Below are positions 19,530 to 30,188 of a DNA stretch of 64,000 bases, piece after piece. How positions within the stretch are numbered: the stretch's first letter is position 1; every line of letters begins with the position of its first letter. A program made the translations under genes and the position numbers. This DNA is from Kribbella aluminosa (GTDB lineage Bacteria; Actinomycetota; Actinomycetes; Propionibacteriales; Kribbellaceae). The notes under the pieces were generated by a model, which saw nothing but the letters and a program-made list of their open reading frames with translations, was not told the origin of the DNA and searched no databases. Location: assembly GCF_017876295.1 (NCBI RefSeq), contig NZ_JAGINT010000002.1, positions 3,038,001 through 3,102,000 of the forward strand, in the 5' to 3' direction.

Positions 19530-20480
19530 CTACTTGAAGCGATGCCAGATCGCGTCATCTTTCGCGAAGTAGCTGCGCAAGCGATGGCCGAGCTCCTCTG
19601 CGACATCTGGCCGGCCAAGGAGTCTCGCGATCACGCTGGTCACCAGTTGGAGGTCCCGCACGTCACGCAAGACTGGCCAATTGGGAGAGGAGAATAGATC
19701 GAAGCCGTACGAGGACGCGAAGCCTTCGTATTCTCGGTGCGAGTCGGCGAACCGCTCCACCCCGTGTGCGGCCGGCACCAAGTCCCACTCTGGAGGGCCG
19801 AAGCGAACTGAGTCCAGGTCGATCAGAACCACGCCCAGGGGCGTGCTGAGCAAATTCCCAGCATGGGCGTCGCCGTGGATGACGCTGACGGGCAAGGCCC
19901 ACTGGGCAGCCGCGATGGCCGAACGGAGCTCAGTGCAGCGCTGCAGCAGCCGATCGGCGACCTGAAGGATTGACAGATTGAGCTCACGCTTCGCCCAGGA
20001 GTGCAGGTAGTCCATGGTTTCGCCAGTTGCGTCCGCTACCTTCCGCACGCGAGTCCCGCAGCGGTCGATCACGTCCCATTCGGGGACGGCGAGCCCCAGA
20101 TGGTGAATGGAATGTACGGACAGGAGCGGGGAGGCAAGGTCCACGAGCTCATGCCGGTGACCAGCGGGTTGGGGTAAGTAAGTCCATGCGGTTGCCATCC
20201 ATGCCGACGTCTCGATCGGCTCCCCGAGGCCTGGTGCAAGCCGAACGGTGGGCAGATTCAACTCGGCGAATCGGCTGGCGACCGCGGCGGTTTGACGCAC
20301 CTCGTGGACGTGATCGGCCGGTGCGATTCGCAGTACGACGTCCGCTGCTGGCACGTAAAACACCGCGTTCATGGTGTAGCGCAAGAGTCGGGCGCCTGTT
20401 GGGTCGACGCCAGCTGCGGCAGCTATCTCATGCAGCGCCGTGTTGAGGCGATCGCGTTCGTCGCTGCTGAGAGTCGTCAC
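19530..20480 (-). CDS. aminoglycoside-phosphotransferase-family kinase
   Basis: This 316-residue protein carries the APH/choline-kinase catalytic core: Brenner-type motif VIHGDAHAGNLL at about 222-233 and the Mg-binding VLIDLDSVRFGPPEWDL at about 240-256. N-terminal residues contain a Lys-less nucleotide pocket, VVLRIAP. The family phosphorylates small hydroxylated molecules or antibiotics; the substrate cannot be read from the sequence. I chose the GTG at 20480 because upstream residues in the longer frame do not look coding. As ICE cargo it could confer resistance, but it could equally be metabolic. Confidence 0.8.
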   Translation of the reverse strand: MTTLSSDERDRLNTALHEIAAAAGVDPTGARLLRYTMNAVFYVPAADVVLRIAPADHVHEVRQTAAVASRFAELNLPTVRLAPGLGEPIETSAWMATAWTYLPQPAGHRHELVDLASPLLSVHSIHHLGLAVPEWDVIDRCGTRVRKVADATGETMDYLHSWAKRELNLSILQVADRLLQRCTELRSAIAAAQWALPVSVIHGDAHAGNLLSTPLGVVLIDLDSVRFGPPEWDLVPAAHGVERFADSHREYEGFASSYGFDLFSSPNWPVLRDVRDLQLVTSVIARLLGRPDVAEELGHRLRSYFAKDDAIWHRFK

Positions 20481-20703
20481 ACCGTAGAAGTTAGCTTCCC
20501 TGCACCGTAGAGGACACGTTCGACGACTCCCCGGTGCCGGCTGACCCGCGGTCGCGGAATTCGATGGGAACGACCTGGCAGTCGCGGAGGCTTCGATGCC
20601 CTCGGAAAGGGAGGGCCGCAGACGGTTCGGGCATGGCTTTGCCGAGCCACGTCGATCCTGCCGGATGTCGCGGACCTGTAGCAGGTGAGGCAACTCGACA
20701 GCC

Positions 20704-21546: not shown

Positions 21547-22290
21547 TCACGGCTCTCCGATCGGCAGGGCACTCTCCCAGACCCGCTCGAAGCTCTCGAG
21601 GTAGTGGCCCGCGAGTTGGCCGCCGGGGATCCTACGCAGATGCCACGCCGGAGCCTGCGCGGCGGGCAGCCCGTAGAGGTGGGTGTTGACCAAGAGAGTG
21701 TCATCAGCGCGGAAGATCGAGTTGTAGAGAATCGTGCGATGGGTCCGAAACTCTATGCCGGGGACCGTAGCCAAGTTACTGAAGAGGACCATGGAGTTGC
21801 GGACCTTCGCAGCTAACGCCTCACCGATTCCCTGTTCCCGCCCACGCTCGGCGACATGCGAGTCATCGGGATCTCCGAGCAGGATCCGGACACTCGCTCC
21901 GGCCTTCGCCTTCTTACGGATGACTCGTTGCAGCTGAGTGCTTTCGGCAACGAACAGACCCGCGTACACGAGTATGCCGATGTCGCTGTCGCCGGACTCG
22001 AAGAACGTTCGCCACGCATCCGCCGAGATGTCGGAGAACTGAGGGTAGACCCGAACGATCTCGCTCTCGGACACCGCGGCGGCGCGCTGGCCGGTTACTG
22101 CAGTCGGGAACAGGTAGGCCTCGTCCCGCCCGAGCCGTGTGGCCAACCGATGGCGATTGCGGGGGAACGGGATGTAGTCATGGGCAACCCACCGCTCGAC
22201 CGTCTTGACGTTGACGCCGAGCTCTTCGGCGAGCGCCAGGTAGGTGAGGTTGTGCTCGGCGAGCGCGGCGCGCAGTCGTTCGTTAGCCAC
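21547..22290 (-). CDS. HTH regulator with degenerate phospholipase-D-like domain (paralogue)
   Basis: The protein has 247 residues. The N-terminus ANERLRAALAEHNLTYLALA with VKTVERWV is the HTH, and the C-terminal domain contains SDIGILVYAGLF and the motif TILYNSIFRADDTLLVNTHLYG, parallel to the neighbour's. About a third of the positions look identical to the gene at 20780, so they are probably an old duplication. Both lack the catalytic Lys of true PLD motifs. The start could also be a GTG at 22296; the inner GTG at 22290 has AGG ten bases upstream. A GGACATTT site lies 13 bases upstream. Confidence 0.75.
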   Translation of the reverse strand: MANERLRAALAEHNLTYLALAEELGVNVKTVERWVAHDYIPFPRNRHRLATRLGRDEAYLFPTAVTGQRAAAVSESEIVRVYPQFSDISADAWRTFFESGDSDIGILVYAGLFVAESTQLQRVIRKKAKAGASVRILLGDPDDSHVAERGREQGIGEALAAKVRNSMVLFSNLATVPGIEFRTHRTILYNSIFRADDTLLVNTHLYGLPAAQAPAWHLRRIPGGQLAGHYLESFERVWESALPIGEP

Positions 22291-22302
22291 AGACACAACC
22301 TA

Positions 22303-22374
22303 GGACATTTCCAGGCGTTTCGCCGGGAGGGAAACATTTTCGGACGTCTGTCGATGCCGTGTCGATGCCCTGGG
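22303..22374. promoter_or_regulatory. divergent control region with GGACATTT and TGTCGATGCC repeats
   Basis: Between the PLD-like paralogue (minus) and the large XRE gene (plus) lie GGACATTT at 22303-22310, an ACATTTT further on, and TGTCGATGCC twice with an 11-base period near 22350-22372. Repeats at roughly helical spacing suggest operators for one or both of the flanking regulators. Confidence 0.4.
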
Positions 22375-22417
22375 GCGGCACGGCATCCTTCCTCCGACAG
22401 AAGGAGGAATCAACTTC

Positions 22418-23821
22418 ATGGTCGATCGGGAGCCGAACAGGCTGCTGCGAAAAGCCCGAGGTTCTATGACACAGCGCCGCCTGGCTGACCTGGTCAGTGC
22501 AGAGATCTACAACGCCACGGGCAAGAAGAGCGTCATCACCGCGAAGTCCATCTCTGACTGGGAGTGTGGCTTGTATACCTGGCCACCGGCGCACGTTCGG
22601 ACGGCTCTGTGTCGTGTGCTTCAGGAGCCAGACCCGTCCGACCTCGGCTTCTTCAACAAGCGACGTGTCAGTGCGCCCAAGAAGCCGGAAGTCGCATCCC
22701 TCGTCGATCTGATGGCCGGCCAACTGCCCGCAGCCGGGTCCATGACCCTGCGTATCCCTGACGGCCGGTCGTTCTCGGGAGTGGACGTCGAGGCTCATCG
22801 TCGTGAGGCGGTGTCGCCGGGGGACGGATGGTTGATGGTCGACCCAGGACCTGATGCTGTGCTGAACCGGCCCGACCGTCGTTCATTCGTCATAGCCGTT
22901 GATGACATGCAGCAGTCCTGCATTTTGGACGGACGCCGGTTCGCTAACCGCGTCGGACGTCGAACGGGCCCGCAACCGGTCTCGTCGGCGACCTCCGTCG
23001 ATGATCTGACAGTTGGCGTCATCTGGGCAGTGACAAACACAGATGTGGCGTTGTTGGCGGACGACAGTCATCTCTCGACCCTTCAGGCAGAGTTGGCGCC
23101 CCACGACAGGCGGTGCTTGTCGGATATGCTGCTGACCGGGGTGCCTATGCTTACCCCGGTCGCGAGCCAATGGCTGAGGTCCTGGCTCTGTACTCGCCAC
23201 ATCAGTCGCAAGCTCGAGCGGTTGTCGGGTCAGCCGTACTTATGGCCGCTGGGGAGAAGAGGCGAGGATGCGACCTCGTGGCTGCTGTGGCGACATAGGT
23301 TCGAGTATCTTCGTCATACGTCGCGGTGGTTCCCGCGTATGCGGCACGACTTCCACGTGCAGGAGTCGGATGTTGTGGAGTCGCCGATGTACGAGCGAGT
23401 TCTGCTCTTGCTGGCGGCCGCGCTGATGGAGGCGTTCGGGATCGCAGTGGCCCTGAGTTCTGAGTGTGAGCCCGCAGAGGTCCTGCAGTCCGTGCCCGGC
23501 GATGAGTCGATCGTTGCGAACTGGCTCGGTGCCTCAGGCCTGTGCTGCGTCGATGCAAGCGCACCGTGGTCGTGCGGGGTGGTGTCCGGCGATGGCGCTG
23601 AACAAGCGCGCGAGCTGTCGCCGGTCACCGAGCAGTCCTCGGAATGCAGGCTGGAGGCGATTGCGAATCGACTGGACGTGTCGTGGCCGTGGTTCCAACG
23701 GCGATGTGCGGAGCTTGCACCCGAGGGAGTTGATGACATCGCCCATCCGCGCAGTCGGTTGCTTTCGACACGGGGGTTGAACTCTGCGGTTCGATACATT
23801 GCCCGGGCGAAGAATCTTTGA
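22418..23821 (+). CDS. large XRE-type regulator (467 aa)
   Basis: Residues about 5-75 form an HTH domain of the same type as the stand-alone protein at 17986 (SMTQRRLADLVSAEIYNATG, ITAKSISDWECG). The remaining 390 residues contain no motif I know; several Trp/Arg-rich patches (LLWRHRFEYLRHTSRWFPRM, SWPWFQRRCAEL) suggest a structured sensory domain. AAGGAGG stands ten bases before the ATG. The gene is followed after five bases by the convergent TrmO-type gene. Confidence 0.75.
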   Translation: MVDREPNRLLRKARGSMTQRRLADLVSAEIYNATGKKSVITAKSISDWECGLYTWPPAHVRTALCRVLQEPDPSDLGFFNKRRVSAPKKPEVASLVDLMAGQLPAAGSMTLRIPDGRSFSGVDVEAHRREAVSPGDGWLMVDPGPDAVLNRPDRRSFVIAVDDMQQSCILDGRRFANRVGRRTGPQPVSSATSVDDLTVGVIWAVTNTDVALLADDSHLSTLQAELAPHDRRCLSDMLLTGVPMLTPVASQWLRSWLCTRHISRKLERLSGQPYLWPLGRRGEDATSWLLWRHRFEYLRHTSRWFPRMRHDFHVQESDVVESPMYERVLLLLAAALMEAFGIAVALSSECEPAEVLQSVPGDESIVANWLGASGLCCVDASAPWSCGVVSGDGAEQARELSPVTEQSSECRLEAIANRLDVSWPWFQRRCAELAPEGVDDIAHPRSRLLSTRGLNSAVRYIARAKNL

Positions 23822-23826
23822 GCGGA

Positions 23827-24309
23827 CTATTCGGTGGGCGCGAAGTAGTTCACAAGCATGTCGGTGGTCCAGGCCGGCTGGTGAGTCGCGCCCCGGGGGC
23901 CGAACTCGTCGAACCATGGCTTGATGTCCAGAACGGGAGTGCCGTCTACGGCATCGAGATCCTCGACGAGAAGGTCGAGGCCATCGACCTTCAAAAGCCG
24001 ACAGCGGGAGATCCCGAGCCAGTTGATCCGGCGCATATTCCTATGGCCAAATGCACCGACTTCGGGCCAGGCCGGGTTATCCCTGGGCCGGCGGGCGCCC
24101 AGGTTCAGGTCGCTCTGGTCGCTGAGATGGAAGAAGAACACGACCTCGAGGTGAGAGAAGTCGTCCAGCCCGACAACGGATCGTTCGTCGAACCGCTCGC
24201 TGTTGATGCGCAGGATCGCGCGCGCGCCACCCCAGTTGTCATCGGTAGGTTCGCTTCGGCCGCCGATGACCTGGGCGACGGGTTCGAACGTGAGGGCGCG
24301 GTGCGTCAT
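23827..24309 (-). CDS. TrmO/TsaA-type SAM-dependent tRNA-modification enzyme
   Basis: The 160-residue protein has the TsaA beta-barrel signatures GLDDFSHLEVVFFFHL, PRDNPAWPEVGAFGHRNMRR and a DLDAVDGTPVLDIKPWFDEF-type box. TrmO N6-methylates the threonylcarbamoyl group of certain tRNAs using SAM; some family members have other small-molecule substrates. It probably shares a transcript with the TPR regulator upstream (42-base gap). A tRNA-modifying enzyme as ICE cargo is uncommon. Confidence 0.85.
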   Translation of the reverse strand: MTHRALTFEPVAQVIGGRSEPTDDNWGGARAILRINSERFDERSVVGLDDFSHLEVVFFFHLSDQSDLNLGARRPRDNPAWPEVGAFGHRNMRRINWLGISRCRLLKVDGLDLLVEDLDAVDGTPVLDIKPWFDEFGPRGATHQPAWTTDMLVNYFAPTE

Positions 24310-24351
24310 AGGGACATCCTTCGATCGACGAGGTTTGACGGCGAGGCCTGG

Positions 24352-25815
24352 TCACCTCGCCGCGGAGGCGAGGTAGCGAGAAGCCCGATGGTCGAGTTCG
24401 GTCGCTGCGGGGATGCCGCGGGCTCGGAACGGCGACAGCGCCGCGCGCATGTCGACGACAGTCTGACGCGTGCGGCCGGAGTGCACACCATCCATGACGT
24501 CGAGGGCAGTCGACCAGGTCGAGCAGGCTTCGTCGATCGCGCCCTGACGAGCCTGGACTGCGCCGAGGTATCCCAGGGTCACGGCGTGCGTGCGGGTGAA
24601 AGTCGCTGCCTTGCGGGTACGAACGCTGTGTCTGAACTGGGATGTCGCCGCGGTCAGATCGCCGAGGTCGCGCAGGGTACACGCGGTTTCGTGGGCGAGG
24701 CTGGCCTCGCCGAAGAAGAACACCCGACCGGGTTCGTCATCATTCTTGCTAGCGCTGGCGAGGTTGTCCTCAGCACGCAGCAGAGCCTTGGCGGCGGCAC
24801 TGCCGTCGCCAGCGGCCGCCAGCGCCCGGGCATGGACGACCTCGAGCAACGCCCGCTCGCGGGGACTTGCCAGGGTTGACCGTCGCCCGTCCAACGACGC
24901 CTTCGCGAGCTGGACGGCTTGGCGTGGGTGACCCAGGTCGACGGCCTGATGGGCCATCGCACGCAGGACGTGGCCAGCCAGCGGTGGGTCGTCGGCCTCG
25001 GCCGCGAGCTGGACGGCGACTGTGAAGTACTTCTGTGCGGTGGCGTGCTCAGCATTGTCGAATGCCATCCAACCACTGAGGTACGCAAGTTCGCCGGCCG
25101 TGGAGAACAGGTCCCGGCGAATGTCGGCGCTGGCGTGAGCGGCTCTCAGCGCGCTGGCGACTTCAGAGGTCAGGTACTGTGCCAGAGCGGTGCGTGCGTG
25201 CCCGCCCCCACGGCGCTGATCGAGCCGGGTGAACATGGCCGCCATCTCCTGGATCGCTTCCAGGTCACCGGCGCCGATCAACCGGCCGGTCCGAGCAGAG
25301 CGCTGGGCTCCGCGGCGCGCCATCGTGTCCCACCAGGCCTGTGAGGGCACCGCGAGTGCGGCCACCGAGTAGCCAGCGGCTCGTAGGACAGATCTGCGCT
25401 CGATGTCCACGTTGCCTCTTCCCAGATCGGCGAGCGTCGTCAGCGTATCTGCGGACCAATTCAGTGCTGCAGGCGGCTGCGGACCGGACAGGCCGATCTC
25501 GTCGACAGTGACGACCCTGCCGAGGCGTCGGGAAAGCGCCTCAGCCAGGATCGCCGGCGCGTCACCAGATGGCGTCGACCCCGCGACCCAATGTGAGACG
25601 TGGGACCTGCCCACCGAGACCAGGCGCTCGTTGCCGGCTTCGAAGGCGACTCGACCGACCGCGTGCGCGAGTTGGGCATGCGACCAATCTGCCTCGGCGA
25701 TGACGGCCGCGAGCTTGGCATTGCGGCGCGGTTCAGCGCCCGACCTTCTCGTTCGCTCGTTCACCGCTTTCACCACTCTCGACGTCCGAACAGGTGTCCC
25801 ACGCGAAGAAGCCAT
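24352..25815 (-). CDS. HTH/TPR transcriptional regulator (487 aa)
   Basis: The N-terminal HTH lies at about 30-100 (KLAAVIAEADWSHAQLAHAV ... VSVGRSHVSHWVAG). It is followed by the linker RRSVLRAAGYSVAALAVP typical of actinobacterial TPR regulators and a helical TPR region to the end (about 200-470). Such proteins often respond to peptides or small signals. An internal GTG start near residue 15 is possible because the first residues are not conserved-looking. It is divergent from the related gene at 25863 with a 47-base gap. Confidence 0.75.
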   Translation of the reverse strand: MASSRGTPVRTSRVVKAVNERTRRSGAEPRRNAKLAAVIAEADWSHAQLAHAVGRVAFEAGNERLVSVGRSHVSHWVAGSTPSGDAPAILAEALSRRLGRVVTVDEIGLSGPQPPAALNWSADTLTTLADLGRGNVDIERRSVLRAAGYSVAALAVPSQAWWDTMARRGAQRSARTGRLIGAGDLEAIQEMAAMFTRLDQRRGGGHARTALAQYLTSEVASALRAAHASADIRRDLFSTAGELAYLSGWMAFDNAEHATAQKYFTVAVQLAAEADDPPLAGHVLRAMAHQAVDLGHPRQAVQLAKASLDGRRSTLASPRERALLEVVHARALAAAGDGSAAAKALLRAEDNLASASKNDDEPGRVFFFGEASLAHETACTLRDLGDLTAATSQFRHSVRTRKAATFTRTHAVTLGYLGAVQARQGAIDEACSTWSTALDVMDGVHSGRTRQTVVDMRAALSPFRARGIPAATELDHRASRYLASAAR

Positions 25816-25862
25816 GGTTCGCTCTCATCGTAACGAAACCGGGTAGCAGAGGAGGGCGAGAG

Positions 25863-27230
25863 GTGCACGTGGTACGGCCAGATCCGCAGTGGTGGACCTC
25901 GGGCGTGCACGGGGGACGGCCATTGCGGGATTGCCTGGCCGAGCAGGACATCAAGTCGCTGTTCCTGTTCCTGAGGGATCGCGGCTACAGCAGGAGCGCG
26001 CTCGCGGCTGCGTCCGGTCTCACGGAAACCCGAGTGCGGAGCATTTCCCAGGGCAAGCAGTTGGTAACGTCGTACGAGGTCCTGGTACGTATCGCGGATG
26101 GCTTTGGAATCGACCGCGGCCTGTTGGGTGTGGGATCTCATGTGCCCAGTAGCGACACCAAGACCGATATCAGGCTGCGCGACCCGGGCGCAGTCCCAGG
26201 GTTCGTCGGATCACTGGCTGCCCTGGCGGTTGGCCCCGTTCCGGCTGAGTTGAGCGAGTACGCGGCTGCCAGGCACCCGGCCGCAGCCAGTCCCCCTGAG
26301 CGGGTTACTGCTGCCCACGTCGACCTGGTCCGCGCGGTCTGCGATGAACACCGCCAAATCGATGCCACGCGCGGCGGCGGATCCTGCCGGGACTCCGCAG
26401 CCAGCTACATCGCATGGGCGAGTGGCATGTTGGGCAGCAGATTCGAGACGGAACAGACCGAGGCGGACTTCAAGATCGCCTTGTCCGACATGTGCCAGGT
26501 CGCTGGGTGGGCCAGTCACGATCTCGGTGACGACGCTGCGGCCCGTCACTACCTGACTGCTGGGCTTGTCCTCGCCCGGGAGGTCAACGAACTCGCCCTG
26601 ATTGCTGGTGGTTTCTACCGTCTTGGCCGAGTCTCGATCCACCTCGGCCGGCCGCAGGAGGCGCTGCGGCTATGGCAACTCGGGCAGATCGTTGCCCAAG
26701 ACAGCGGGAACCTCGCTGCAGTCGCTGTCTTACATGCCAACGAAGCCTGGGCGTACGCCATGCTCGGCGCAGCGGACAGAGTGTCGGACTCGCTTGCGCG
26801 TGCTCAAGACGAACTCGGGCGGGTCGACGAAAGCACGGTCCCATCGTGGGCACGGTTCTTTCTGGCGCCCGCGGACCTTGATGGAATCTCAGGGGTCATC
26901 TATGGCTGCCTCGCCTCACACGTCGAACATCGGAACCGCTTCGCGGAGCGGGCGATCGATCATGCTGAACGCTCGTACGCGACGCGGGGCGCGGGAGAGG
27001 AGCGGAGCCGCACGTTTGATGCGATCAGTATCGCCACTGGCTACGTCCTCGACGCCCAGCCGGACCGAGCAGCGGCAACCGGACACCAGGCCGTTGACAT
27101 GGCCTTGGCTACTGACTCAGTCCGGGCTGCCGATCGGCTGCAGGCGATGGCGTCCTTGGCGCGTCCGTACGCCACACACAACGGGGTCAGCGGGGTGCTC
27201 GAACGCGTCAATGCGATGGCCAGCGCCTAA
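25863..27230 (+). CDS. HTH/TPR transcriptional regulator (455 aa)
   Basis: The HTH at about 25-80 (YSRSALAAASGLTETRVRSI, then EVLVRIADGFGI) precedes a long helical TPR-like region, with recognisable repeats such as AARHYLTAGLVLAREVNELALI. The GTG at 25863 has a textbook GGAGGG six bases upstream, so I prefer it to an in-frame ATG at 25794 that would overlap the divergent gene. Together with the gene at 24352 it forms a divergent regulator pair, so they may cross-regulate. Confidence 0.75.
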   Translation: MHVVRPDPQWWTSGVHGGRPLRDCLAEQDIKSLFLFLRDRGYSRSALAAASGLTETRVRSISQGKQLVTSYEVLVRIADGFGIDRGLLGVGSHVPSSDTKTDIRLRDPGAVPGFVGSLAALAVGPVPAELSEYAAARHPAAASPPERVTAAHVDLVRAVCDEHRQIDATRGGGSCRDSAASYIAWASGMLGSRFETEQTEADFKIALSDMCQVAGWASHDLGDDAAARHYLTAGLVLAREVNELALIAGGFYRLGRVSIHLGRPQEALRLWQLGQIVAQDSGNLAAVAVLHANEAWAYAMLGAADRVSDSLARAQDELGRVDESTVPSWARFFLAPADLDGISGVIYGCLASHVEHRNRFAERAIDHAERSYATRGAGEERSRTFDAISIATGYVLDAQPDRAAATGHQAVDMALATDSVRAADRLQAMASLARPYATHNGVSGVLERVNAMASA

Positions 27231-27274
27231 CGGCCTGAGGGCCGGTGGATCGACGTCGACCGGGGAGACCGTCC

Positions 27275-28429
27275 TCATGGCTCCAGCGAGGAATACATCG
27301 AGTTCCACCGCTCGTAGATCGCCGGGTCTGGGCGGTAGGAAACGATGGCTGACAACGGGATGTGCATGATGACGCCACCGGTCATCGCTACTTCCGCCCA
27401 CGGCTGATCGTTTCCAACTGGGTAGTGGCGGTGTGGGGCGAAGCGGACCACAGCATCGGAACGCACGACGTCGGCAGACTCATGTGGTTCCCAAGTCAGC
27501 CAACCTGACTTCGCAACCTGGGCGATCTCGACCAGTGCCCGATAGCTGTGTTCCGCGTCGGAGTCGTCAGCCACCCAGGTCTCTGAGTCGGCGTTCGTCG
27601 TTTGACGGGCGAGATGCACGACCTCGCTGATTGGAGGAAACCCTGTGATCGGGGCTGGCGCATCGACCACATCCGGCTTCCGCGACATCGCCCGCAGTTC
27701 GTCGGAGTCGAGCAGGTGATAGAGGTCGTGCACGCGTGGGGTCGTCGCGTCGGTCTCGGCATAGGGATGGACGACGCGGTCGGTGTTGAACGGTGTGAAC
27801 CAGCCTTCGACTGGCGGAAGCCACATGCCGAGCGAGCGTTGCATGGCAGGGTCATCTTCGACGCCGTCCATATCGTCGCTGAACAACAGCTCGAAGTTTG
27901 TGTCGTCCAGTATCAGGTCTTCTAGGCTCACGTCGTGATCGAGGCCGGCTTCGTCCATCAGGGTATAGGCGTACTTGCAGATCGCGTTGACGATGATCTC
28001 TTCGGCTATGCACGCGGGCCGATCACTCTTGGGGTTGGCCAGGTCGTGGCTGACCTTGACCGCGGAGACCAGGATCTTGGCGAAGAACTGCTGATCGTAC
28101 GAGGGCCGGAACCGAGGTGGGAAGTAGTTCCACACGAACGTATCGGCGTAGATCTCGGGATCGGGTGCGCCGTCCGGATCCATTTCGGCAGCGCCGATGG
28201 TCTGGATGTCAGCGATGCACTCATCGACGATGTGGATCGCTGCGAGGGTGACGGCGCCCAAGAGACGTCGCTCGATCAGTAGGTCCGCATCGCTTGGTGG
28301 GTTGTCGCCCCAGTCCCCGCGGTCGTCGGGCGAGCCCAGGTAGGCGATGTACGGGTTGCGGGCCCGATCAGCCAGATCGTCGAGGAGTTGAATCAGCGCA
28401 GGATCCGTCACCCGATCAGGCTGCCACAT
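27275..28429 (-). CDS. cargo protein of unknown function next to the integrase (384 aa)
   Basis: This soluble, acidic protein has no domain I recognise. Visible features are an Asp-rich N-terminal third, FVWNYFPPRFRPSYDQQFFA, and a C-terminal part with WLTWEPHESADVVRSDAVVR. It lies 11 bases downstream of the integrase in the same direction and probably shares its transcript. ATG 28429 is preferred because GAAGGTG is at good distance; GTG starts at 28438 and 28411 are alternatives. Confidence 0.65.
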   Translation of the reverse strand: MWQPDRVTDPALIQLLDDLADRARNPYIAYLGSPDDRGDWGDNPPSDADLLIERRLLGAVTLAAIHIVDECIADIQTIGAAEMDPDGAPDPEIYADTFVWNYFPPRFRPSYDQQFFAKILVSAVKVSHDLANPKSDRPACIAEEIIVNAICKYAYTLMDEAGLDHDVSLEDLILDDTNFELLFSDDMDGVEDDPAMQRSLGMWLPPVEGWFTPFNTDRVVHPYAETDATTPRVHDLYHLLDSDELRAMSRKPDVVDAPAPITGFPPISEVVHLARQTTNADSETWVADDSDAEHSYRALVEIAQVAKSGWLTWEPHESADVVRSDAVVRFAPHRHYPVGNDQPWAEVAMTGGVIMHIPLSAIVSYRPDPAIYERWNSMYSSLEP

Positions 28430-28440
28430 GATCCACACCT

Positions 28441-29871
28441 TCAGAGCAAATCGGGGTCGTCGAAGGCTCTTTCGAGCGCTTCGGCGGCGGCTGGGTTGGC
28501 GGCTCGACGGCCCATATACACATCTTGCGTGATCGAGACCTTGGCCTGACCCAGTTGGTCGGCAACTTGGCGGGCGGTGTGGCCGGCCTCGTCAAGGGCG
28601 GTGGCGGTGGTCTTGCGGAGGGCGTGAGAGCGGATCCAGGCGAGCTTGTCTGACTCGGCGGGTTGGATGGCCGCCTCAAGCTGGGCAAGCAGGTCAGGAC
28701 TGTCGTTGAGGTCGATGCCGTAGATCTTGACGAGGCTGGCAACAAGTGAGTCGTCGACCTTGATGCGGCCGGTTTCGACCAGCTCCACTCTGGTTTGAGG
28801 CCATCCGAGCGTGGCAGCTACCTGCTTGCGGGACATGCGCATCTTGCGGCGGTGCGTCTGGAGGGTAAGTCCGAGGTCGCGGCGGGCGGCGCTTCCGACG
28901 GGGGACAGGGCGGTGCGGAGGGAGCGGCGGGTGTTCGAGGGGTCGCGGAAGCCGCCGCGGGTGTCGGAGAAGATGGGGTTGTCGAGGCGGACGCCTGCAG
29001 CGAAGCGGGCGCGGAGTCTGGCGGTGGCCCAGGCGGGGAGGCTGAGGACCCGTTGGCCGGCTCGTGACTTGGTGGTCTTGCGGATCAGGCCGCCACCTGG
29101 CAGCCGAGCGATGGTGTGGGTGATTTTGACGGTGCCGGTTTCGAGGTTGACCTGCTCCCAGAGGACGGCGAGGGCTTCGCCGATGCGGACGCCGGTGCCG
29201 AGCATGAAGGTGGTCAGGTCGGGGAGGTCGGCTTGGACGGCTCGTTGGTCGGCGGCCAGGCTCTTGCGGAGGAGGGTGACTTCTTCGGTGGTGAGGGCTC
29301 GGGGTGGGTTCTTGGGTTTGGCTTCGATGGCGTCGACTTCGCGGACAGGGTTCACGGACATGGCGCCGTAGCGGACGGCGAGCTTCATAGCCCCAGACAG
29401 GATGGCGCGGCAGGTCTTGGCCGTGGGGGCGCCGGACGTGTTCTTGATCTTGGACAGGACGGTGTCGATGCGTGGGGTGCTGGCCTCGCCGATGCGGAGC
29501 TCGCCGACGGCGGGACGGATGTGGTTCTTGAGGGCGCGCCGGTAGGTATCCAGGGAGGTGGGGGAGCGTGTGCCGTCGTTGACCAGGCCCTCGAATCGCT
29601 TTTCCCAGAGGTCGAGCAGGTGGTTGATCTTGTGCATCGCGGTCAGCTCGCCCGACTGGCTGGTCTTCGCGCGGTCCTGGACCTTCTTCAGAAGTGCACG
29701 TTCGGCGGCGGTCTTGGTCTTGCCGAACGCGGACACAACGCGGACGCGGCCGTCGTGGTCGCGGAACTTCGTCTTTGCGCGGTAGGCGACAGGCTTGCCC
29801 TTGTCGTCGGTCCTCTCGACGCTGGCCGAGATGCTTCCCCAGCCTCCGATGGGCAGCGGTGGTCTCGACAT
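28441..29871 (-). CDS. int: tyrosine-recombinase integrase with inserted XRE-type HTH domain
   Basis: The integrase has 476 residues: an N-terminal AP2/SAM-like arm-binding part to about 190, then the catalytic domain with Arg229 (GTGVRIGEAL), Lys268 (KTTKSRAG), His416-x2-Arg419 (SHALRK) and Tyr452 (ITQDVYMGR). The usual second His is Gln442. Between the Lys region and the HxxR box, residues about 327-402 form a complete XRE-type HTH (HRRKMRMSRKQVAATLGW, VELVETGRIKV), an insertion of about 75 residues. It lies next to tRNA-Lys(CTT) and reads away from it, as expected for the enzyme that inserted the element there. Confidence 0.92.
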   Translation of the reverse strand: MSRPPLPIGGWGSISASVERTDDKGKPVAYRAKTKFRDHDGRVRVVSAFGKTKTAAERALLKKVQDRAKTSQSGELTAMHKINHLLDLWEKRFEGLVNDGTRSPTSLDTYRRALKNHIRPAVGELRIGEASTPRIDTVLSKIKNTSGAPTAKTCRAILSGAMKLAVRYGAMSVNPVREVDAIEAKPKNPPRALTTEEVTLLRKSLAADQRAVQADLPDLTTFMLGTGVRIGEALAVLWEQVNLETGTVKITHTIARLPGGGLIRKTTKSRAGQRVLSLPAWATARLRARFAAGVRLDNPIFSDTRGGFRDPSNTRRSLRTALSPVGSAARRDLGLTLQTHRRKMRMSRKQVAATLGWPQTRVELVETGRIKVDDSLVASLVKIYGIDLNDSPDLLAQLEAAIQPAESDKLAWIRSHALRKTTATALDEAGHTARQVADQLGQAKVSITQDVYMGRRAANPAAAEALERAFDDPDLL

Positions 29872-30115
29872 CTCAGGCCTCCAACCGGGGTGATGGTTGG
29901 CAGCTCAACGCTCGGCGCGGCTGAGAATCCGAGAAATCGGCAGCGACGCGAACCGATGTGACGTGACGCACAGTAATGGTGAACGAGAGGCGGCGAGGGC
30001 GACCTGAACAAGACCCTGGGCGCTCGCCACGAAGGGTGGATCTGGCAAAGGGGCACGTAAAGGGCCCGTGCCAGACATGACGAAACCCAGGACACTCGCG
30101 TGACCTGGGCTTTTG
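29872..30115. other. integrase leader and attachment-site flank
   Basis: There is no gene here. The part nearest the integrase carries a minus-strand CGTTGAGC motif (29903-29910) about 30 bases upstream of its ATG. A weak hairpin (GGCACG/CGTGCC) lies around 30055-30075. The element-chromosome junction should fall at or just inside the tRNA 3' end. Confidence 0.55.
30086..30109 (-). terminator. hairpin terminator behind tRNA-Lys
   Basis: Arms CCCAGG and CCTGGG, extended inward by CAC/GTG after one mismatch, enclose a four-base loop. On the minus strand the hairpin is followed by TTT. It starts seven bases downstream of the tRNA 3' end, so it probably ends the tRNA transcript. Confidence 0.7.

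Positions 30116-30188
<73 letters not shown>

Follow-up and report, generated by a model that had tools for sequence, protein, structure and literature searches.

We find that the gene at positions 28441–29871 (minus strand) of the window, by which we mean the whole 64,000-nucleotide stretch of Kribbella aluminosa DNA analysed here, encodes a tyrosine integrase of 476 residues whose catalytic domain is split by a complete XRE helix-turn-helix (HTH) domain. This architecture is real, conserved and of clear descent. In the reading that we favor, with a probability of about 55%, the protein is an XRE-split integrase related to those of AICEs and pSAM2, in which the HTH would make a second DNA contact and would, in addition, repress int from a conserved 25-bp block upstream of the gene.

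Domain Architecture of the Integrase

The gene starts with ATG, and residue i of the product begins at position 29871-3*(i-1). An 11-codon in-frame extension upstream of this start was considered and rejected, the conserved stretch there being read as DNA over the ribosome-binding site and not protein. Residues 1–60 (29692–29871; all domains of the protein lie on the minus strand) form a beta domain with model strands at 15–21, 27–37 and 43–50, which we take to be arm-binding-like from general knowledge of the tyrosine integrase family. A core-binding, SAM-like domain at residues 80–185 (29317–29634) is assigned from the model helices and a Phage_int_M match to residues 102–179 (Pfam, 1.3e-6). 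The catalytic domain comes in two parts, the first at residues 190–326 with R229, E232 and K268 (28894–29304; Pfam and sequence conservation) and the second at residues 408–470 with H416, R419, Q442 and Y452 (28462–28650; spacing and conservation), and the Phage_integrase profile matches the ORF in two stretches (Pfam, 3e-11).

Between these parts lies the inserted XRE HTH, at residues ~325–407 (28651–28899), with helices at 328–343, 348–355, 359–366, 374–383 and 392–402; model and conservation point to residues 359–366 (28774–28797) as the predicted DNA-recognition helix. The first-pass annotation, which named no strand, had the location right but drew the insert slightly too small, at about 75 residues (327–402) where we count about 83. 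Pfam HTH_31 matches residues 332–389 at 3.7e-11 (43.6 bits against a curated cut-off of 27) and HTH_3 matches residues 341–389 at 1.3e-5, both between Lys268 and His416, and every Phage_integrase, HTH_31 and HTH_3 match of the protein exceeds its curated Pfam cut-off. Integrase and HTH profiles match one and the same ORF, and the objection that there might be no HTH hit therefore fails. DUF5753 has no Pfam match on the protein, the HTH part alone being present.

A full-length AlphaFold model (43-row alignment, mean pLDDT 85.0, pTM 0.60) gives the insert the five-helix fold of an XRE domain, and not an ordinary helix hairpin of the catalytic domain, with pLDDT values of 86–93 in the ten-residue blocks over residues 331–400. 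The junction blocks have values of 72 (321–330) and 80 (401–410), and the helix of His416 begins at residue 415. At a pTM of 0.60, the position of the HTH with respect to the other parts of the integrase is unsure. Modelled alone, as an 87-residue segment with 17 insert sequences, the insert again forms five like helices (pLDDT 86.6). When the insert is compared with the PDB by Foldseek, XRE proteins rank first (ClgR 3f52, C.BclI 2b5a and 5woq), with BldD (4ob4) and lambda repressor (1lmb) ranked lower; no match has an E-value below 0.001, but the probability is 1.00 and the TM score (query) about 0.6–0.7. Profile and fold thus both bear out the original claim that the catalytic domain contains an entire XRE HTH. 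In a structural comparison that is a second look only and leaves room for families outside its list, the integrase part aligns over 282 residues with Tn1549 Int (6en2; Z 21.8, rmsd 3.1) and over 253 with lambda Int (1z19; Z 17.2, rmsd 3.7).

The catalytic set R229, E232, K268, H416, R419 and Y452 is complete in the window integrase. R229, K268, H416 and R419 (Lys268, His416 and Arg419 being exactly where they had been annotated) are identical in all 38 distinct insert-bearing sequences, Y452 is found in 36 of the 38, and E232 is invariant in A1 and A2. The sole departure among the catalytic positions is residue 442, the third catalytic His position, which is usually His or Trp and here is Gln. 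Gln occupies this position in 26 of 42 insert-bearing integrases versus 1 of 120 HTH-free ones (25 of 38 distinct insert-bearing sequences in another count), and His is kept in 16 of the 42. As judged from the sequence, Gln442 puts recombinase activity in question but not family homology, which is secure since all other catalytic residues are present and relatives retain the His.

Distribution of the Split Integrases

To compare spacing, the aligned gap between the two catalytic parts was taken in every ORF holding both in 221 loci (212 rows). The gap is exactly 81 and accompanied by an HTH match in 64 rows, all of them from Kribbella; 145 rows have a gap of -3 to 30 and no HTH match, and three are degenerate. 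After removal of duplicates, 45 distinct integrases with the insert at the same site stand against 136 distinct HTH-free relatives, so the homologues sharing this split that the first-pass annotation had called for do exist. The insert exceeds most HTH-free relatives by 83 residues (aligned gap of 81 versus the usual -2). A gene-model artefact or chance is ruled out by the profile E-values, the equal insert length in the 45 distinct homologues and a dN/dS of about 0.33 in the insert.

Within Kribbella, at least one uninterrupted match (from profile position 1–2 to at least 461) is present in 22 of 38 genomes. The 77 matching rows of the genus comprise 39 uninterrupted ones, 33 broken or partial ones (truncated, interrupted or fragmentary) and 5 of the HTH-free kind. 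Two rearranged or broken integrases of the family lie in the window's own genome (L235, G000:C1:2874201-2875175, and L233, G000:C2:2820368-2821544). Uninterrupted HTH-split integrases were seen in Kribbella only. Wider samples were searched with 4 or 9 candidates scored per genome, so that rarer cases may escape. In the class sample (394 genomes), 28 other genomes have a relative at 1e-60, and the matches listed end by position 327, short of the insert or just at its border; loci from those genomes are without HTH in the spacing test. With a junction-spanning profile, the phylum sample (396 genomes) gives matches to both insert and catalytic domain in the window's genome only. Eleven other rows match the insert part alone, preceded by no more than 13 residues; the seven of them that were checked are all DUF5753 regulators, and were rejected as HTH-split integrases elsewhere in the phylum. 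In the order sample (391 genomes), junction-spanning matches occur in Kribbella and in G052, which belongs to another family of the order. This genome holds a remnant beside tRNA-Lys(CTT) with a 162-residue stretch of 51% identity (L268, G052:C3:80000-90500) and a second HTH-split integrase fragment (G052:C3:78756-79019). The two remnants rule out a distribution limited to Kribbella, and imply that the HTH-split type either moved between families or predates the genus.

Origin of the Insert

In a tree built without the insert, from 33 insert-bearing and 16 HTH-free rows, the insert-bearing integrases split into two groups of 13 and 20 rows, both supported, next to three Jiangella integrases, two of them named and the third, L194, assigned by its genus code, and a single Kribbella integrase that lacks the HTH. 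The free tree search requires two changes of state, one change being enough in 12% of bootstraps, while a tree holding all 33 insert-bearing rows in one clade has a log-likelihood 5.0 higher than the free search and a p-AU of 0.62. A single gain of the insert is therefore compatible with the sequences and favored, neither rejected nor proven, and we consider it the most likely course.

Outside the integrases, the four best matches of the insert profile in the window's own genome (L260–L263, 4.6e-9 to 4.2e-6) are all HTH_31+DUF5753 proteins, and for this reason the donor was probably a DUF5753-type regulator from which the N-terminal HTH alone was taken. In fifth place comes a different type of protein, HTH_31+MLTR_LBD (L264). 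The XRE HTH would have been inserted, most likely once, in the loop before the His-x-x-Arg helix.

The recipient was likely a pSAM2-like xis-int module. Of the 16 HTH-free rows in the tree, 15 have xis ahead of int, and a motif scan finds xis kept in 6 of 40 insert-bearing loci, which leads us to suggest that the insertion probably came first, in such a module, and that the turned layout arose later. A simple link between HTH gain and loss of xis was rejected, as those 6 of 40 loci keep xis and the motif is also absent from 97 of 123 HTH-free rows, the motif being narrow and many of the rows being phages. Ahead of the window int, the 420 bp scanned contain no match to the xis motif.

In the nearest HTH-free relatives scanned for tRNAs, the tRNA follows the 3′-end of int and lies on the opposite strand. 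Of the 40 loci that bear the insert, 23 have a tRNA T-loop on the upstream side alone and 7 on the downstream side alone; a single locus has T-loops on both sides, and 9 have none on either. In the window's branch there is no adjacent xis, the tRNA precedes int, and int reads away from the tRNA-Lys attachment site; the other insert-bearing branch is without this geometry wherever a tRNA was found. Two other Kribbella genomes carry elements with an oppositely oriented int at tRNA-Lys(CTT), adjoining what looks like the window's oxidoreductase gene; one is HTH-free with a preceding xis (L254) and the other is HTH-bearing (L253).

The Attachment Site and the Element

The attachment site is the 3′-end of a tRNA-Lys (CTT) gene at 30115–30188 (minus strand), 243 bp from the int start and on the same strand, and the genome has three further copies of this 3′-end. 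The repeat at 30100–30150 (minus strand) is identical over 51 bp at G000:C2:2793600 and 2780428, and over 37 bp at G000:C1:2875431. All three copies precede another int of the family on the same strand, the one at C1:2875431 being rearranged. The identical 51-bp repeats are indirect evidence for a putative strand exchange at the tRNA-Lys site.

At one sister locus (L232, G000:C2:2776000-2795900), a unit of 13.2 kb lies between two identical att copies and is followed by another HTH-split integrase. Its cargo consists of an HTH-split int (first), a PIN_8 protein, JetA2, JetB2 and JetC2 (Wadjet), and AbiEi/AbiEii; JetD was not seen in this unit. Defence cargo is thereby shown for the sister copy, and not for the copy in the window. 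The left end of the window's element was not found, the nearest further att copy being 274 kb away, and the sequence that follows the tRNA in two other genomes maps nowhere near the window.

Directly downstream of int lies a gene for a 387-residue protein (27275–28438, minus strand) with no Pfam or PADLOC match, whose homologue sits next to int, among the loci compared, only in the close relatives L009, L011 and L012. Past this gene, the region 21547–27230 holds regulator-like genes, with two sub-threshold HTH_31 matches (one together with a weak TPR) and one weak HTH_23, and a 487-residue protein without any match. Among the five proteins at 21547–28438 there is no RepSA-type replication or FtsK-type transfer protein, the far end of the element not having been found. 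An APH-family phosphotransferase gene (1.3e-14) is present at 19530–20693.

The Region Upstream of int

Between the tRNA and int we find several candidate regulatory features, all on the minus strand. One is a conserved 25-bp block at 29954–29978, a candidate operator or promoter. Scans used a matrix built from such copies, with 29 copies scored and 31 in the related alignment. The block occurs once in the window, with a score of 39.6 versus a shuffled maximum of 8.8, the matrix including the window copy itself. Its best fit is at -104 to -109 from the int start in 28 of the 29 window-type copies, the exception being L018, and agreement with the consensus is 15–18 of 25 in L040 and the L020/L022 group and 20 or more in the others. 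The block is found once at int in L239, L242, L245 and L246, and twice in L232, which has two such int genes; the region of the HTH-free element L254 also holds a copy, near an att-like site. A GTGAC-N5-GTCAC dyad within the block scores 3 of 5 in the window copy and 0–1 of 5 in eight copies of the L020/L022 group. The block was not found in any of the six loci scanned from the other insert-bearing branch (L247–L251 and L253), which speaks against the block as an HTH target shared by both branches, and a one-to-one code between recognition helix and block is not evident.

Closer to the tRNA, a direct repeat with 11-bp spacing (ACGGGCCCTTTACGTGCCCCT) at 30049–30069 matches at 8 of 10 positions in the window and could represent arm-type integrase sites. 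The best repeat scores 7 to 10 of 10 in 29 copies, a count that has no shuffled control and in which some best matches lie elsewhere or have another spacing. The alignment of window-type copies further reveals a conserved CGTTGAGC motif at 29903–29910 and an inverted repeat, CCAACC-N8-GGTTGG, over the ribosome-binding site at 29881–29900. In the inverted repeat 87.1% of cells are paired, and changes on both sides are seen in 3 of 6 pairs, a number reached by 17 of 500 shuffles, with the covariation score reached by 0 of 500; this shuffle control is inflated by related rows, and a palindromic protein site would mimic an RNA hairpin.

Function of the Insert

As the enzyme fold and catalytic residues are kept in sequence and model, the integrase probably retains recombinase activity at the tRNA 3′-end. 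Three roles had been offered for the insert in the first-pass annotation, namely a second way of binding DNA, repression of its own gene and gating by a ligand. The first is the best-supported: through the HTH, each subunit of the integrase most likely contacts DNA at a second, specific sequence in the int-att region, and in the window's branch this contact may shape the recombination complex and repress int from the 25-bp block. A role of int as its own repressor is compatible with the layout of the window's branch, since int follows immediately after the attachment site in the tRNA and the block keeps a near-fixed distance from the int start, although the other insert-bearing branch shares neither this geometry, where a tRNA was found, nor the block, in the six loci scanned. 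Ligand gating is disfavored, because the insert is the HTH part only and lacks the DUF5753 domain of its four nearest relatives in the genome. The arrangement suggests a conserved design in which a single protein would both mobilise the island and recognise another DNA site, perhaps its own switch. It could be taken one step further, so that the recombinase would be its own regulator or directionality factor, in a branch that drops the neighbouring xis, turns int around and moves cargo such as defence genes. The HTH-split int is the only mobility gene seen so far in that branch of Kribbella islands, and we put this stronger version forward tentatively, as a possibility to keep in mind and not as our expectation.

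XRE domains often pair, and many XRE dimers use the fifth helix. As the insert has this helix (392–402), and its fixed length and junctions suggest rigid packing, it might act as a protein-protein or oligomerisation module that tunes integrase assembly or binds a partner, and not DNA. We think this unlikely, because W357 (just before the recognition helix), E366 and R369 are invariant in all 38 distinct insert-bearing sequences and R361 is kept in 36, which pairing would not need, though some of these residues may be structural.

A little less likely still is that the insert is tolerated baggage with no function of its own, which stays since its loss would break the catalytic domain. The median dN/dS is indeed highest in the insert, at 0.33, against 0.26 in the N-terminal domain, 0.17 in the core-binding domain and 0.23 and 0.16 in the catalytic parts (180 pairs at 70–97% identity, some from duplicate loci), and the 33 of 77 genus matches that are truncated, interrupted or fragments would also suit this explanation. 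The insert is thus under purifying selection, yet less constrained than the rest of the integrase. None of the 45 distinct copies, the most divergent being about 42% identical to the window protein, has a shortened insert, however, although the site accepts -3 to 30 residues in HTH-free relatives, and the recognition-helix residues are kept.

That the protein is now mainly a DNA-binding regulator without recombinase activity, like the SPbeta repressor MrpR, is very improbable: the excess of Gln442 among insert-bearing integrases (26 of 42 versus 1 of 120) and the appearance of the phi3T repressor SroF among the structural matches (Z 11.2–11.3, rmsd 6–10, ~245 aligned) would agree with it, but R229, K268, H416 and R419 (38 of 38) and Y452 (36 of 38) are retained where MrpR, in the accessible part of its description, has lost several such residues (PMC10516654), and identical att repeats surround the related 13.2-kb unit.

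If the HTH binds DNA, the family would show that recombination and transcription control can be joined in one polypeptide, through a domain of about 80 residues placed before the active-site helix. HTH-split integrases would then allow a direct test of how direction is chosen, and the integrase level self-set, without a separate excisionase or repressor. The site of the insert also shows where a domain could be placed when tyrosine recombinases are engineered to be regulatable.

Comparison With Known Systems

We found no published description of an HTH inserted in the catalytic domain of an integrase in the open-access literature, including the accessible parts of PMC8138268, PMC3218068 and PMC10516654. 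Among pSAM2-like AICE and actinophage integrases, the closest HTH-free relatives are in Jiangella and one Kribbella element (L033/L254). They share the integrase core (58 and 56% identity for two named Jiangella rows) and the tRNA 3′-end site, with xis directly upstream of int in L033, L077, L081 and L194, but differ in being without the XRE insert and in having an int that converges on the tRNA, whereas the window int reads away from it. The HTH itself is related to that of HTH_31+DUF5753 regulators, and here it lies inside another protein without DUF5753.

In the part of the KplE1 study available (PMC2951348), intS is under the control of TorI and of IntS itself, and an overlap of attL with the int promoter goes with negative autoregulation. 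Like KplE1 IntS, the window int lies next to a tRNA with its upstream region at att, the distance from tRNA to int being 243 bp; unlike IntS, for which that part mentions no inserted HTH, the window integrase has one built in. Insertions in the catalytic domain have been described for the integron, IntTn916, IntBPP-1, Arch2 and lambda subgroups, as a short sequence or beta-strand, by Smyshlyaev et al. (PMC8138268), in whose main text, as accessible, the term helix-turn-helix is absent. The window integrase resembles those subgroups in having extra elements in the catalytic fold and differs from them in that the inserted element is an HTH. Finally, MrpR of SPbeta is described, in the part of the report available, as repressing through a recombinase fold without several catalytic residues (PMC10516654). 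MrpR and SroF share with the window integrase a recombinase fold tied to repression, whereas the window integrase keeps its catalytic residues and adds a separate HTH.
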